Shown here: one piece after another, positions 7,803 through 60,205 of the stretch
Numbering within the stretch: the first letter of the stretch is position 1
Layout: each line of letters begins with the position of its first letter
Source of the DNA: Candidatus Auribacterota bacterium
GTDB taxonomy: Bacteria > Auribacterota > Tritonobacteria > UBA1439
Assembly (NCBI GenBank): GCA_026392035.1
Contig: JAPLCX010000064.1
Span: forward strand, 1-64,000
Length of the DNA: 64,000 nucleotides
Reading direction: 5' to 3'
Position numbers and translations under genes: made by a program
The notes under the pieces: model-generated
What the model was told of the DNA's origin: nothing
The model's database searches: none
Seen by the model: only the letters and a program-made list of their open reading frames with translations

Positions 7803-8672
7803 ATGAAAGAAAATGTCAGCGTGATTATCCCGACGTACAACCGGGGGCCTTTCCTCAAAAAGGCGATTGAGTCCGTGCTGTCGCAGAGCTATCAGGAATT
7901 TGAACTCGTCGTCGTGGACAGCCACTCAGGTGACGACACACCGGCCATCCTCAAGGGCTTCGGGGACAGGGTCACCGTGCTTCAGGCGGCGCACGGAAAC
8001 CCCGCCGCGGCGCGCAACCTCGGGATCAGGCGCACTCACGCTCCGCTCATTGCCTTCCTCGACTCAGACGACTGGTGGCAACGGGACAAGCTCTCGCTCC
8101 AGCTCAGGGCGATGGATGAAAATCCCCCGTACCTCATCTCACACACGCAGGAAATATGGTACAGCGGGGGGGAGATTCTGCGGCAGAGACGAAAGCACCG
8201 GAAATACCACGGCTGGATATTCGATAAATGCCTCCTGCTGTGCGCGGTCAGCCCCTCCACGGTCATCGCGCGGCGCGAGCTCTTCGAAGCGGTCGGTATC
8301 TTTGATGAAAGTTTCGTCTGCTGCGAGGACTACGAACTCTGGCTCCGCGTGAGCGCGAGGTATCCCTTTCTCCTCGTGGATATGCCGCTCACCTTTAAGG
8401 ACGGCGGGCGCGGGGATCAGATGTCCCGCATCCACCGGGTGGGGATGGACAAATTGAGGATACGGGCCCTCTTGAAAATACTGAGTGAACCCTCACTTCT
8501 GAGCGAAGCGCAGAGAGCGCTGGCAGTGCGCGAACTCGAAAAGAAATGCCGCATTTATGGAGAGGGCTGCATTAAACATGGGAAAATCGAGGAGGGCAAC
8601 CACTATCTCGAGTTGCTGAAATTACTTCCGGTTATCCAGATTTCTCCCCATCAGCCAGACTTCACCCGGTGA
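7803..8672 (+). CDS. Glycosyltransferase family 2
   Basis: A 289-residue GT-A enzyme. It begins VSVIIPTYNRGPFLKKAIESVLSQSYQ, the classic GT2 nucleotide-sugar-binding start; the metal-binding DxD region is AFLDSDDWW (about residue 86), and CCEDYELWLR is the catalytic-base ED motif. It transfers a sugar from a nucleotide donor onto a glycan or lipid; donor and acceptor are unknown. The ATG at 7803 directly precedes the conserved beta strand; the frame upstream is repeat sequence. There are no transmembrane segments. It ends convergently, overlapping the GNAT gene by 51 bases. Confidence 0.9.
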   Translation: MKENVSVIIPTYNRGPFLKKAIESVLSQSYQEFELVVVDSHSGDDTPAILKGFGDRVTVLQAAHGNPAAARNLGIRRTHAPLIAFLDSDDWWQRDKLSLQLRAMDENPPYLISHTQEIWYSGGEILRQRRKHRKYHGWIFDKCLLLCAVSPSTVIARRELFEAVGIFDESFVCCEDYELWLRVSARYPFLLVDMPLTFKDGGRGDQMSRIHRVGMDKLRIRALLKILSEPSLLSEAQRALAVRELEKKCRIYGEGCIKHGKIEEGNHYLELLKLLPVIQISPHQPDFTR

Positions 8673-50407: not shown

Positions 50408-50862
50408 GTATCTCGTATTTCGTATCTCGTATTGTGCATCTCGCAAGCACATGCACAAGGGACATGAAGAATGAAAGACAAAATAATCAGTTTTAGGGAT
50501 CTTGAGGTGTGGCAGTTGGGGAAACTGATTGTGGTAGAAATCTATACGACAACAAAAACGTTCCCGCCTGAGGAGATATATTGCCTCACCAACCAGATGC
50601 GGCGGGCGGCAGTCTCCATTCCATCAAACATAGCAGAAGGTTTCAGCAGGTATCACAACAAAGAATACCGCCAGCTGCTTTTCGTAGCCCTCGGATCTTG
50701 TGCTGAACTGGAAACCCAAATTGAGATAGCTTGCGAATTGGGTTACCTCGATACGTCCTCACGCCAAAGCCTGCTCGAAAAGTTGGATCACGAATCGCGA
50801 ATGTTACGGAACTTAATTAAAAAACTCTAAGGACGAGATACAAAATACGATATACGAGATAC
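50408..50862. mobile_element. Heptamer-armed element H1 carrying a four-helix-bundle gene
   Basis: Left arm (50408-50435): GTATCTC, GTATTTC, GTATCTC, GTATTGT. Right arm (50835-50862): GAGATAC, AAAATAC, GATATAC, GAGATAC, the inverse of the left units. The arms flank one gene and fill the whole mlaE2/mlaF gap. No transposase is present. The arms could form a stem of about 28 bp in DNA or mRNA with the gene in the loop. Confidence 0.6.
50471..50830 (+). CDS. Four-helix-bundle protein (S23/IVS/Avd-like) 1
   Basis: A 119-residue protein of the four-helix-bundle family once called S23 ribosomal protein (found in 23S rRNA intervening sequences and related to Avd of diversity-generating retroelements). 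Hallmarks are FRDLEVWQLGKLIVVEIY, EIYCLTNQMRRAAVSIPSNIAEGFSR and LGSCAELETQIEIACELGYL. Members form barrel-like pentamers that bind nucleic acid. It is inserted between two genes of one operon and flanked by inverted GTATCTC heptamers. The ATG at 50471 follows GAAGA. Confidence 0.88.
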   Translation: MKDKIISFRDLEVWQLGKLIVVEIYTTTKTFPPEEIYCLTNQMRRAAVSIPSNIAEGFSRYHNKEYRQLLFVALGSCAELETQIEIACELGYLDTSSRQSLLEKLDHESRMLRNLIKKL

Positions 50863-54379: not shown

Positions 54380-54410
54380 TACAGCCTGTTTCCCTGATGT
54401 ATGAAATTAG

Positions 54411-54439
54411 GTGAAAAATCGCCCGCGATAGGATATCAT
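54411..54439 (+). promoter_or_regulatory. Possible ilv operon promoter
   Basis: GTGAAA (54411-54416), a 17-nt spacer and TATCAT (54434-54439), 27 bases before the ilvD start. The match is modest. No T-box, leader peptide or attenuator is visible. Confidence 0.35.
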
Positions 54440-54466
54440 GGGGCATTCTCTCACAGGGAGACTGTC

Positions 54467-56125
54467 ATGCCGATGAAACATGAGGCGATCACCAAGGGGA
54501 TCGAGCGAATGCCCCACCGCGCCCTCCTGTTCGCGACAGGGATCGGGCGCGAAGATATGTCAAAACCGTTTATCGGCGTGGCCACGTCCTGGAACGATCT
54601 CATCCCGGGCCACGTGCACATGCGCACACTGGAGCGATTCATCGAGCGTGGCATCTTCGCCGCGGGGGGCGTCGCGTTCTTTTTCGGCATCCCTGGCGTC
54701 TGCGACGGGATCGCCATGGGGCACGAGGGGATGAGATACTCGCTGCCGCTGCGCGAGCTCATCGCCGACTCCATTGAGACGGTCGCCCGGGCGCACGCAC
54801 TCGACGGCCTCGTCCTCCTCACGAACTGCGATAAGATCACGCCGGGGATGCTCATGGGGCTCATGCGCCTCGACCTCCCCGGTATCGTGGTCACCGCCGG
54901 GCCGATGCTCGTGGGTCACTACAGGGGGAGGAAGCTCTCCCTCGCCAAGGACACCTTCGAAGCGATCGGCCGCTTCAAAGCGGGAGAGATCGATGAGCAG
55001 GAATTCCGGGAGCTTGAGATCAGGGCTTGCCCTGGGCCCGGTTCCTGCCAGGGCCTCTACACCGCGAACACCATGGCGTGCGTGACGGAGGCGATGGGAC
55101 TTTCATTGCCGGGCTGCGCGACGGCGCCGGCGGTTGAATCGGAGAAGCTCCGCATCGCTCAGGCGAGCGGGAGCAGGATCGTGGAGCTGGTGCGGCAGGG
55201 GATCACCGCGCGGGCGATCGCCACACGCGCCGCGTTCTCCAATGCCATCCGCGCCGATATGGCGCTCGGCGGTTCGACGAACAGTGTCCTCCACATACCG
55301 GCAATCGCGTACGAGGCCGGGATCGAGCTCCCTCTGGAAACATTCGACCATGTGTCAAAAGACACACCGCACATCGCGAGCCTCCAGCCTGGGGGCGATT
55401 GGTGCATGGAAGATCTCCATCGCGCGGGCGGCATTCCCGCGATCCTCTCGGTGCTCAAAGAGAAGCTTGAGGATGCGGCAACCGTGAGCGGGAAGAGCAT
55501 CCTCCGGATTGCCACAGAGGGCGTTGTGTACGACCAGGCGGTGATCAAGCCACTGAAGGAAGCGTACAGCCCCGAGGGAGGCATCGCGATCCTGAAGGGA
55601 AATCTGGCCCCCGAGGGAGCCGTCGTCAAGCAGAGCGCGGTCAAACCAGAGATGAGGCAGTTCAAGGGGCGGGCCGCGGTATTCGACTGCGAGGAGGCGG
55701 CCATGAAGGCCGTGATGGAAAAATGCATCCCCCGCGGCACGGTGATCGTCGTCCGCTACGAGGGCCCCAAGGGAGGACCGGGGATGAGGGAGATGCTCTT
55801 GCTCACCGCGGCGACCGTGGGGATCGGGCTCGCCGACCATGTCTTCATCGTCACCGACGGCCGCTTCTCCGGCGGGACAAAGGGGCCCTGCATCGGCCAC
55901 ATCTCACCCGAGGCGATGGAGGGCGGTCCGATCGCAGCCGTCAGGGATGGGGATGAAATAGAGATCAACATGCCGCAGCGCACACTCACCGTTGCCCTGA
56001 GCGAGCGCGAGCTCGCCGCTCGCCTGAAGGCATGGAAGCCGCCGGAGCCGAAGGTCAAAAGCGGATACCTCGTGCGCTACGCCCGCTCGGTCACCTCGGC
56101 TGCCACGGGAGCCATATGCAAGTAG
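54467..56125 (+). CDS. ilvD: Dihydroxy-acid dehydratase
   Basis: A 552-residue protein of full IlvD length. Motifs are [12 protein letters not shown] (first cluster Cys), [29 protein letters not shown] (second Cys and family signature), [14 protein letters not shown] and [21 protein letters not shown] near the C-terminus. It dehydrates 2,3-dihydroxy-isovalerate and -methylvalerate to 2-keto acids in valine and isoleucine synthesis, using an Fe-S cluster. The ATG at 54467 follows AGGGA; the in-frame ATG at 54401 is less likely. First gene of ilvD-ilvB-ilvN-ilvC-leuA. Confidence 0.96.
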
Positions 56126-56134
56126 CAACCGTTG

Positions 56135-56268
56135 TTCGTCATTCGTACTTCGTATCTCGCAGTAAAGTAGAAAGGCTAGAGAATTTCAAATATCTTAAGA
56201 TCCGGCAGAATGATGGACACACAATACTCGTCGTCTTAGTCTACGATATACGAAATACGAACGACGCT
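56135..56268. mobile_element. Heptamer-armed element without a gene, related to H1
   Basis: Left arm (56135-56162): TTCGTCA, TTCGTAC, TTCGTAT, CTCGCAG. Right arm (from 56242): TACGATA, TACGAAA, TACGAAC, GACGCTG. The units are of the same CGTAT type as H1. The 79-base interior has no gene. The element fills the ilvD/ilvB gap. Confidence 0.55.
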
Positions 56269-56291
56269 GTACGATTGGGGGTTATTACGAT

Positions 56292-58019
56292 ATGAAGGGG
56301 TGCGAGATCGTCGTCCAGGCGTTGCTCAAGGAGAATGTCCAGGTGATGTTCGGCTACCCTGGCGGAGCCATCATGGACGTCTTTGACGCGCTGTACGAGG
56401 CGCCCATCTGCTTCATCCTCACCCGCCATGAGCAGGCGGCGGCCCACGCTGCCGACGGCTACGCACGCGCCACGGGGAAGGTCGGCGTCTGCATCGCCAC
56501 CTCCGGCCCAGGCGCCACCAATCTGGTCACGGGGATTGCCACCGCGTATATGGATTCAGTCCCCCTCGTCGCCCTCACCGGGCAGGTCTCCACGCAGATG
56601 ATCGGCAACGACGCCTTCCAGGAGGCGGACATTGTCGGAATCACGCGGCCAATCACCAAGCATAACTTTCTCGTCAGCAATGTTGACGACCTCCCCCGAA
56701 TCCTGAAGGAAGCGTTCCTGATCGCCTCCACGGGCAGGCCGGGGCCTGTCCTGATCGATCTTCCCAAGGATATCCAGAAGGCCGAGACGGCGCAGACCTA
56801 TCCGGAGAGCGTCGAGATCAGGGGGTACAAGCCGACTTACAAGGGGCATCCCCAGCAGATCAAGCGCGCCGCCGCGGAAATCGCAAAGGCGAAAAAGCCG
56901 ATCATCTATGCCGGCGGCGGCGTGATCAGTTCCGGCGCGGCGAAAGAACTCAAGGAGCTCGCCGTCAAGGCAGAGATACCGGTGACCACCACACTGCTGG
57001 GGCTGGGGGCGTTCCCAGAAACGCACGAGCTCTCGCTCGGGATGCTCGGGATGCACGGCACGGTCTACGCAAACTACGCCATGGCGGAGGCCGACCTCGT
57101 CATCGCCGTGGGCGCTCGCTTTGACGACCGCGTGACCGGCAAGCTCTCCGCATTCGCGTCACACGCACACATCATCCATATTGACATAGACCCCGCCTCC
57201 ATTCACAAGAACGTCACGGTGGATGTCCCCATCATCGGGGACGTGAAGGCCGTGCTGAAGGAGCTCAACAAGCTCATCAGGAAATGTGATTCCACCGAGT
57301 GGCTGAGCACGATCAAAGGCTGGAAGGTGAAGCACCCGCTCACCTACGACATGAAGATCGGAACGTTGAAGCCCCAATTCGTGATAGAAAAGATGCGGGA
57401 GCTCACGAAAGGGGAGGCGATTGTCGCCACCGACGTCGGCCAGCACCAGATGTGGTCGGGGCAGTACTGCAGGGTGACAAAACCGCGGACGTTCATCTCA
57501 TCCGGGGGCCTCGGGACGATGGGATACGGCTTCCCCGCGGGCATCGGCGCTCAGGCCGGCTTGCCCAAAGAGCTCGTCGTGGTCATATCCGGCGATGGGG
57601 GCTTCCAGATGAACATACAGGAGCTGACGACCGCGGTGAACTACGACCTGCCGGTCAAGGTGCTCATCCTCAACAACCAGTACCTCGGCATGGTGAGGCA
57701 GTGGCAGCAGTTCTTCTACAAGGGCCGCTACGCATCGACCTGCCTCGCGCGCAATGTCCACTGCCCGAAGATCTGTGACGGCACGGCGGGAAAATGCCCT
57801 CCCTACGTTCCTGACTTCGTGAAGGTGGCCGAGGCCTACGGCGCCATGGGACTGAGGGTTGAAAGGGAGAAGGAGGTCGTGCCCGCGCTGAAGAAGGCGT
57901 TCCAGACGAAGAAGCCGGTGGTGATAGAGTTCGTGGTCGCCCCGGAGGAAAACGTTTTCCCCATGGTGCCCGCCGGTGCCTCGGTGAAAGAGATGATCAA
58001 GGGAATGGAACTAGTGTAA
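56292..58019 (+). CDS. ilvB: Acetolactate synthase large subunit
   Basis: A 575-residue protein of standard length. The N-terminal TPP domain has [15 protein letters not shown] and [23 protein letters not shown], with the activating Glu in HEQ. The central FAD-binding region follows, and the C-terminal TPP motif is [30 protein letters not shown]. It condenses two pyruvate molecules, or pyruvate and 2-ketobutyrate, with loss of CO2. It works with the regulatory subunit IlvN encoded next. A Cys-containing stretch ([20 protein letters not shown]) near residue 490 is unusual and could reflect an extra loop. Confidence 0.96.
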
Positions 58020-58022
58020 ACG

Positions 58023-58142
58023 CAAAAGTCAAAGCGCAAAAGGTAAAATGACAAGGCAAAATTCAAAAGGGGGAGAAGAGGGTTGCATGGGCGTACCGTT
58101 GTTTTTGACTTTTGGATTGTGGTTTTGACTTTTGACTTTTTC
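58023..58142. mobile_element. Heptamer-armed element without a gene, related to H2
   Basis: Left arm (58023-58071): CAAAAGT, CAAAGCG, CAAAAGG, TAAAATG, ACAAGGC, AAAATTC, AAAAGGG. Right arm (58102-58142): TTTTTGA, CTTTTGG, ATTGTGG, TTTTGAC, TTTTGAC, TTTTTCA. The right arm shares GACTTTTG-ATTGTGGTTTTG with the right arm of H2. About 30 bases lie between the arms. The element fills the ilvB/ilvN gap. Confidence 0.6.
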
Positions 58143-58188
58143 ACGAGACACCCGGAGTTCTGTATACGCATATGGAGATATCAATGTC

Positions 58189-58662: not shown

Positions 58663-59119
58663 AAAGTCAAAACGCAAAAGGCAAAACCAAAAGCCAAAAT
58701 TCAAAACAGAGATGAATGACAGGGTTTATGATCTTAAGAAGCGGACATACCTCTATGCGCTCGAAATAATCCGCTTTCTTGAAAGCCTGTCAAAAGATTA
58801 TATTTCGCAGGTTATCGGAAAACAGCTTCTTCGGTCAGCAACATCCGTTGGAGCAAATATTATCGAGGCACAAGCCGCAAGCTCAAGAAAGGATTTTATC
58901 AATTTTTACAATCATGCCCTTAAGTCGGCGAATGAAAGCAAGTTCTGGCGCGGCCTTATCAAGGATTCCGGTAAGGCATCTCCTGATATGATAGCTCCTT
59001 TTCTCAATGAAACGAACGAATTGGCTAATATATTAGCAGCGAGCATATTAACGATGAAGGGCAAGAAGAAGTTTTGACTTTTGAATTGTGGTTTTGCCTT
59101 TTTACTTTTGGCTTTTGAG
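58662..59119. mobile_element. Heptamer-armed element H2 carrying a four-helix-bundle gene
   Basis: Left arm (58662-58707): AAAAGTC, AAAACGC, AAAAGGC, AAAACCA, AAAGCCA, AAATTCA, AAAC. Right arm (59072-59119): TTTTGAC, TTTTGAA, TTGTGGT, TTTGCCT, TTTTACT, TTTGGCT, TTTGAGT. They are inverse to each other over about 48 bp and bracket one gene, whose stop codon is formed inside the right arm. The element fills the ilvN/ilvC gap; ilvC starts 42 bases later. Confidence 0.62.
58712..59077 (+). CDS. Four-helix-bundle protein (S23/IVS/Avd-like) 2
   Basis: A 121-residue protein of the same fold family as the one at 50471 but only distantly similar. YDLKKRTYLYALEIIRFLESL, IGKQLLRSATSVGANIIEAQAASSRKDFINFYNHALKSANES and a last helix NELANILAASILTMKGKKKF match the family pattern (-Q--RSA-SV-ANI-E----). 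The ATG at 58712 follows the left heptamer arm directly, and the TGA stop lies in the right arm, so arms and gene form one unit. It is inserted between ilvN and ilvC. Confidence 0.86.
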   Translation: MNDRVYDLKKRTYLYALEIIRFLESLSKDYISQVIGKQLLRSATSVGANIIEAQAASSRKDFINFYNHALKSANESKFWRGLIKDSGKASPDMIAPFLNETNELANILAASILTMKGKKKF

Positions 59120-59160
59120 TTAGCATGGTCGATCGCGGGTTACTACCAAGGGAGGATACT

Positions 59161-60159
<999 letters not shown>

Positions 60160-60160
60160 A

Positions 60161-60188
60161 AAATCCCAAATCCCAAACCCCAAATCCC
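60161..60188 (+). repeat. Heptamer tandem array AAATCCC (single arm)
   Basis: Four consecutive units: AAATCCC, AAATCCC, AAACCCC, AAATCCC. It starts 2 bases after the ilvC stop and ends 17 bases before leuA, taking up most of the gap. No inverted partner is seen. Confidence 0.75.
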
Positions 60189-60205
60189 AATAAAGGTATC
60201 GATCT

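Follow-up and report, generated by a model that had tools for sequence, protein, structure and literature searches.

A gene-less palindrome of heptamer arrays between ilvD and ilvB in Candidatus Auribacterota: a probable non-autonomous copy of a dispersed element

Results

Organization of the ilvD-ilvB junction

We analyzed a window of 64,000 nt from the genome of a Candidatus Auribacterota bacterium (G000; 2.8 Mb, draft, 122 contigs). Between the stop codon of ilvD (56125) and the ATG of ilvB (56292) lies a junction of 166-172 nt, which contains two inverted arms of 37 nt each that are 76% complementary and enclose 78 nt (Table 1). The first-pass annotation had placed a gene-less element at 56135-56268 and had assigned its arms to the same unit type as those of an element between mlaE and mlaF. 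Comparison of the arms and analysis of their periodicity bear out the shared unit type, the inverted order and the gene-less interior; the element is real, but its true ends lie slightly farther out.

Table 1. Coordinates of the ilvD-ilvB element, its neighbouring genes and the other elements in the window.
Feature	Coordinates	Strand	Remarks
Left arm, gene-bearing CGTAT element, mlaE-mlaF	50415..50443	+	
Four-helix bundle gene (PF05635, 23S_rRNA_IVP)	50471..50830	+	Cargo of the mlaE-mlaF CGTAT element
Right arm, gene-bearing CGTAT element, mlaE-mlaF	50834..50862	+	
ilvD, dihydroxy-acid dehydratase	54401..56125	+	Upstream neighbour; Pfam
Left (5') arm, gene-less CGTAT-family element	56126..56162	+	Heptamers TTCGTCA-TTCGTAC-TTCGTAT-CTCG
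Interior (loop), non-coding	56163..56240	.	78 nt
Right (3') arm, gene-less CGTAT-family element	56241..56277	+	
ilvB, acetolactate synthase large subunit	56292..58019	+	Downstream neighbour; Pfam
Gene-less AAAAGTC/TTTTGAC-family element	58020..58146	+	ilvB-ilvN junction
Left arm, gene-bearing AAAAGTC/TTTTGAC element	58663..58711	+	ilvN-ilvC junction
Four-helix bundle gene (PF05635)	58712..59077	+	Gene of the AAAAGTC/TTTTGAC element
Right arm, gene-bearing AAAAGTC/TTTTGAC element	59078..59121	+	ilvN-ilvC junction

The pattern TTCGTAN{0,2}TTCGTA matches twice in the window compared to 0.02 expected matches, once in each arm (TTCGTACTTCGTA at 56142 on the plus strand and TTCGTATTTCGTA at 56249 on the minus strand). 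The lag-7 identity of the arms amounts to 0.60 and 0.63, which is clearly higher than the value of about 0.25 obtained after shuffling (0 of 2000 shuffles for each arm). The 78-nt interior is without 7-nt periodicity, as 468 of 2000 shuffles were as good. By eye, the interior frame read from 56161 resembles the four-helix start FRDLEVWQ, and it is possible, judging from the sequence, that the region around 56179-56213 is a remnant of the start of a four-helix gene. Tests for such a remnant were equalled by 129 and 226 of 1000 shuffles using protein profiles and by 8 of 200 using a DNA profile. Alignment of the interiors of all CGTAT-type copies, as put forward in the first-pass annotation, yielded nothing, and the ilvD-ilvB interior has no second copy in its own genome or in seven relatives. 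We propose that it is unrelated or decayed sequence. The S10-L4 junction of the relative G001 was considered as a second four-helix remnant and turned out to be unsupported (147 of 1000 and 40 of 200 shuffles as good).

Connected by a short loop, the arms fold with -28.1 kcal/mol compared to -13.3 +/- 2.9 kcal/mol for shuffled arms (0 of 200), and the core of the stem consists of paired blocks of about 4-7 bases with single mismatches in between, which are located at the variable positions of the unit. Such a stable stem would be in line with a transcribed RNA hairpin that serves RNase III processing or transcript stability and adjusts the expression of ilvD relative to ilvB, similar to the stems of 23S intervening sequences (IVSs), in which RNase III is known to cut (PMC4990558). 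However, the RNA fold of the whole ilvD-ilvB junction does not stand out from shuffles (z = -0.8), and an Rfam search of the region from 50 to 61 kb revealed no match. Considering also the variation between relatives and the pattern of arm mismatches described below, we regard an RNA hairpin of this kind as unlikely.

Each of the two arm families had been described as occurring once with and once without a four-helix gene. This holds in the window, where the AAAAGTC/TTTTGAC family is also represented by one gene-less (58020-58146) and one gene-bearing element (58663-59121), but not genome-wide, as gene-less CGTAT copies far outnumber the single gene-bearing one that was found. The window additionally contains a lone AAATCCC-type heptamer array without partner arm between ilvC and leuA (60160-60196), and heptamers of this type also flank a four-helix gene at another locus (L008).

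Dispersal of the CGTAT family in the genome

The pattern TCGTNNNTCGTNNNTCGT has 36 matches in G000, whereas the reversed control has 2. At least ten inverted CGTAT elements were identified, nearly all of them gene-less and mostly located in junctions of co-directional operon genes, a position that would also suit the RNA hairpin discussed above. The sites are tuf-rpsJ, rpsS-rplV, rplP-rpmC, rplO-secY, mraY-murD, tuf-rpmG, cysD-cysN, larB-larC, mlaE-mlaF and ilvD-ilvB, with all gene names except the Pfam-identified ilvD and ilvB read off translations. Only the mlaE-mlaF copy carries a four-helix gene; the other gene-less loops span 4-45 nt, and the 78 nt of the ilvD-ilvB copy represent the longest one. 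Exact stretches shared by the ilvD-ilvB copy extend over 23 nt with tuf-rpmG (CGATATACGAAATACGAACGACG, 56244-56266 in the right arm), 20 nt with tuf-rpsJ and 17 nt with rplP-rpmC, in comparison to at most 8 nt in controls, although these lengths are somewhat inflated by the heptamer vocabulary. Arm similarity within elements is only moderately above that between elements (62 of 5000 permutations).

Single CGTAT-type arrays without a partner arm, among them one in valS, also occur in G000. Together with the array between ilvC and leuA, they would fit an origin by local slippage and template switching, whereby heptamers expand in place and the inverted copy results from hairpin-primed synthesis, with no need for mobility or a protein partner. 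The arms are indeed imperfect heptamer arrays whose variable positions differ from arm to arm, and the number of heptamers differs among Coxiella strains (PMC4990558). On the other hand, slippage does not account for one unit family at many unrelated junctions of the same genome with 17-23 nt in common, nor for the relation between arms and enclosed proteins described below, and we consider it quite unlikely.

One of the one-sided CGTAT-type arrays lies in frame within an apparent valS gene, near a CxxC region (L111:1999-2060, contig C86 of G000). Both copies of tuf are directly followed by a CGTAT element after the stop codon (L103:230-360 and L105:1254-1330). The left arms of these two elements are alike and their right parts are different, which would fit a gene conversion of tuf that included the left arm.

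The same junctions in related genomes

According to the first-pass annotation, unrelated sequence of similar composition without inverted order in the relatives would have argued against the element. Instead, inverted repeat-array elements were found in the ilvD-ilvB junction of four relatives, namely a CGTAT-type palindrome in G002 (same family), a GTAAGC-type element in G001, a CACAAAG-type element in G006 (same class) and a TAGCG-type element in G010 (same phylum). The element is absent in G003 and G005, in both of which the junction is too diverged to align. Neither a target-site duplication nor an exact insertion point was seen in these comparisons, in which no species provided both an occupied and an empty junction. 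A regulatory RNA hairpin is difficult to reconcile with this picture, since conserved regulation would not predict that unit family, loop and presence vary between genera at one junction.

A similar turnover is evident elsewhere. The ilvN-ilvC junction contains a four-helix gene in G000 as well as in G001, with clearly different proteins and different arms. Lag-7 self-similarity of the intergenic regions in the S10/spc operons is high in G000 (z = 13.8) and G001 (z = 12.5) but about zero in G003, G006 and G007. Compared by eye, the unit families of G000 and G001 differ at most shared S10/spc junctions, for example L23-L2, L16-L29 and L24-L5, and are the same at L14-L24 and S14-S8, which indicates that sites are often re-occupied and that some elements are inherited.

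A four-helix gene flanked by TAGTAGT arms occupies seemingly the same place in G000 (L001) and G001 (L072), preceded by a similar upstream gene and followed by a ferredoxin-like gene. Both four-helix frames contain a stop codon, so this gene may be decaying in place. In the ribosomal protein operon of L103, an AAAGTGT-type palindrome is apparently nested in the loop of an ACGGAG-type palindrome between S8 and L6 (~7807-7980), and CCTGCCGGCAGG-type palindromes interrupt the elements at L23-L2 and L22-S3.

Four-helix genes and their arms across phyla

G000 contains nine PF05635 genes. To these and the other genes of the own phylum we added 80 named loci, taken from GTDB genomes across many phyla and from Methanophagales archaea. 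The carriers include environmental Flavobacterium and Geobacter species. Inverted arms (z>4, with control statistics from base-shuffled sequence) are present at 50 of 75 named four-helix loci, compared to only 4 of 136 control segments from the same loci, and the best arm period among the 50 armed loci is 7 nt in 37 and 8 nt in 10 cases. In the pooled set, 105 of 139 four-helix genes have arms, 80 of these 105 being clearly 7-periodic, and clear arms are missing at 34 of the 139. The closest arm match to the mlaE-mlaF element was found in a Sedimentisphaerales genome (L145), whose four-helix protein is the second most similar to the mlaE-mlaF protein among those compared. No strong domain was detected beside PF05635 in the four-helix protein, and a nuclease or recombinase is thus not in evidence. 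An exception to the link between gene and arms is G016, which has 105 matches to the TCGT-heptamer pattern and lacks a PF05635 gene, so that any action in trans would there need a lost or different partner.

Similarity of proteins and similarity of arms are correlated across 80 elements (Mantel rho 0.19, 0 of 500 permutations). The correlation is also found for own-phylum versus other loci (rho 0.20, 0 of 500) and for the other loci alone at a protein similarity <0.55 (rho 0.12, 5 of 500). In forward orientation the mean arm similarity climbs with protein similarity from 5.8 to 10.3, while it stays flat at 5.2-5.8 in reverse orientation. The best between-element arm matches comprise 67 forward and 11 reverse cases, i.e., the arms keep their polarity with respect to the gene. 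These sequence comparisons suggest that arms and four-helix protein evolve in step in widely differing bacteria. Part of the correlation could be due to co-inheritance or host relatedness and not to recognition, but the signal across lineages is not explained by within-phylum copying alone. It is these two properties, the relation of arm type to the similarity of the enclosed proteins even between distant lineages and the conserved polarity, that slippage in place leaves unexplained.

Mismatches between the arms are compatible with G-U pairing on the transcribed strand in 98 cases, and 106 are A-C (p = 0.62). As there is no G-U strand bias, maintenance of the arms seems not to depend on RNA pairing, and this further weakens the case for an RNA hairpin. 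The mismatch data rather favour arms that are preserved as protein-read sequence arrays or as DNA hairpins and not as an RNA processing signal, and cutting of the arms by RNase III may be a side effect.

Discussion

The closest known counterparts are the IVSs of 23S rRNA, which consist of inverted arms around an S23p gene and are cut by RNase III; in Coxiella, heptamer repeats (GACAGAT) precede an S23p gene that is decaying, and the S23/IVP four-helix family is described as having no known function (PMC4990558). The IVSs of Coxiella and Leptospira resemble the present elements in their inverted terminal arms, a PF05635 gene in the loop and a sporadic, horizontally acquired distribution. In contrast, our elements are located in protein-coding operons, occur in many copies and unit families per genome and are mostly gene-less. 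IVSs are moreover excised from RNA, and the present arms show no bias for RNA pairing. The ilvD-ilvB element has the complementary terminal arms that form the stem of an IVS (37 nt, 76%; hairpin reached by 0 of 200 shuffles), and the S23p/IVP frame expected in the loop is present in the mlaE/mlaF copy and not in the ilvD-ilvB copy. Since it lies outside the helices of a 23S (or 16S) rRNA gene, as do the other copies in protein operons, it is by definition not an IVS, but it may well work like a non-autonomous relative of one.

Short, non-coding palindromes dispersed between genes, together with fewer gene-bearing copies, are likewise typical of MITEs and of REP/RAYT palindromes, and the ten CGTAT elements including mlaE/mlaF are dispersed copies that share their ends with a gene-bearing element. 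The arms described here differ from both in being heptamer arrays and not a single terminal repeat, and the gene encodes a four-helix protein and not a transposase. It is well known that Y1 (RAYT-type) transposases move REP palindromes in other bacteria, and with 11 Y1_Tnp genes in G000 and 14 in G001 (none in G007) such an enzyme encoded elsewhere could mobilise the palindromes, with the four-helix gene as a mere passenger. However, most of the Y1_Tnp genes (L224-L243) have their own conserved and non-periodic terminal inverted repeats (GGGGTCAAATCTTT, AGGGTCAGACC and GGGGACACTC). No transposase is encoded in the element and the Y1_Tnp family, the only one compared, has different ends; the same palindrome was not found flanking a Y1 transposase gene. 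As mobilisation by a Y1 enzyme also leaves the correlation between protein and arms unexplained, we regard it as very unlikely. Some of these Y1_Tnp genes adjoin tRNA-like sequence.

Tandem heptamers in many copies between genes have been reported for Geobacter metallireducens (GGACCGG x4 and MTYCTGA x5), where they also occur inside genes, and for Beggiatoaceae (TAACTGA, almost all direct), and in the consulted parts of both reports they are proposed to be regulatory sites and no link to a four-helix gene is drawn (PMC2700814; PMC4679880). A distantly related four-helix family is Avd of diversity-generating retroelements (bAvd, E 0.0014, below its cut-off). A reverse transcriptase partner as in these retroelements was also considered, and a PF00078 search of the draft genome G000 gave no match. 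Provisionally, the association of heptamer-array arms with four-helix genes is undescribed in the open-access papers searched, with the exception of the Coxiella repeats.

Both the dispersal of the family and the correlated evolution of arms and protein are supported by our data. We therefore consider it probable that the ilvD-ilvB element is a non-autonomous member of a dispersed family of mobile elements, whose heptamer arms are recognised by a cognate four-helix protein. The element would be a palindrome with arms made up of 3-5 imperfect heptamers each, here with a TCGT core and three variable bases, and the apex would hold a small S23/23S-IVP four-helix gene, a short loop or, as in ilvD-ilvB, a 78-nt stretch that is either unrelated or decayed. 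The four-helix protein made by a gene-bearing copy (mlaE/mlaF in the CGTAT family) would recognise the heptamer arrays as DNA, with each subunit or ring reading several heptamers, and might help to copy or move any segment between two inverted arrays, irrespective of a gene inside. Binding by the protein, mobilisation in trans and the transposition chemistry are what we infer here, and no known recombinase was found encoded in the element. Insertions would mostly survive in operon junctions, directly downstream of a stop codon and upstream of the following ribosome-binding site, as they cause little damage at such positions.

In a broader sense, and held with slightly less than even confidence, these elements might belong to a superfamily of mobile DNA palindromes in many bacterial phyla and some archaea, which would be spread by S23/IVP proteins that read 7-nt arrays in an orientation-specific manner, with each lineage having its own unit. 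The 23S IVSs would then be members that landed in rRNA, the ilvD-ilvB element a gene-less passenger, and elements with a PDDEXK_3 gene and a period of about 9-10 nt a parallel class. If arm units and protein co-evolve, each S23/IVP gene comes with a predicted binding array and thus with a directly testable substrate. Furthermore, a single kind of element would account, through its non-autonomous copies, for many intergenic repeats of uncultured bacteria that lack an explanation so far, also in ribosomal protein operons.

The PDDEXK_3 (GxxExxY) genes of G000, G001, G002, G004 and G006 (L244-L263) often lie between inverted arms that repeat themselves roughly every 9-10 nt, with ACGGAG, CGCGGATTNN, ACGCAGAT and CACTGAA as arm types, which looks like a parallel class with different cargo. 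Gene-less arms of the PDDEXK_3 type also occur in the ribosomal operon of L103, at L23-L2, L5-S14 and S14-S8.
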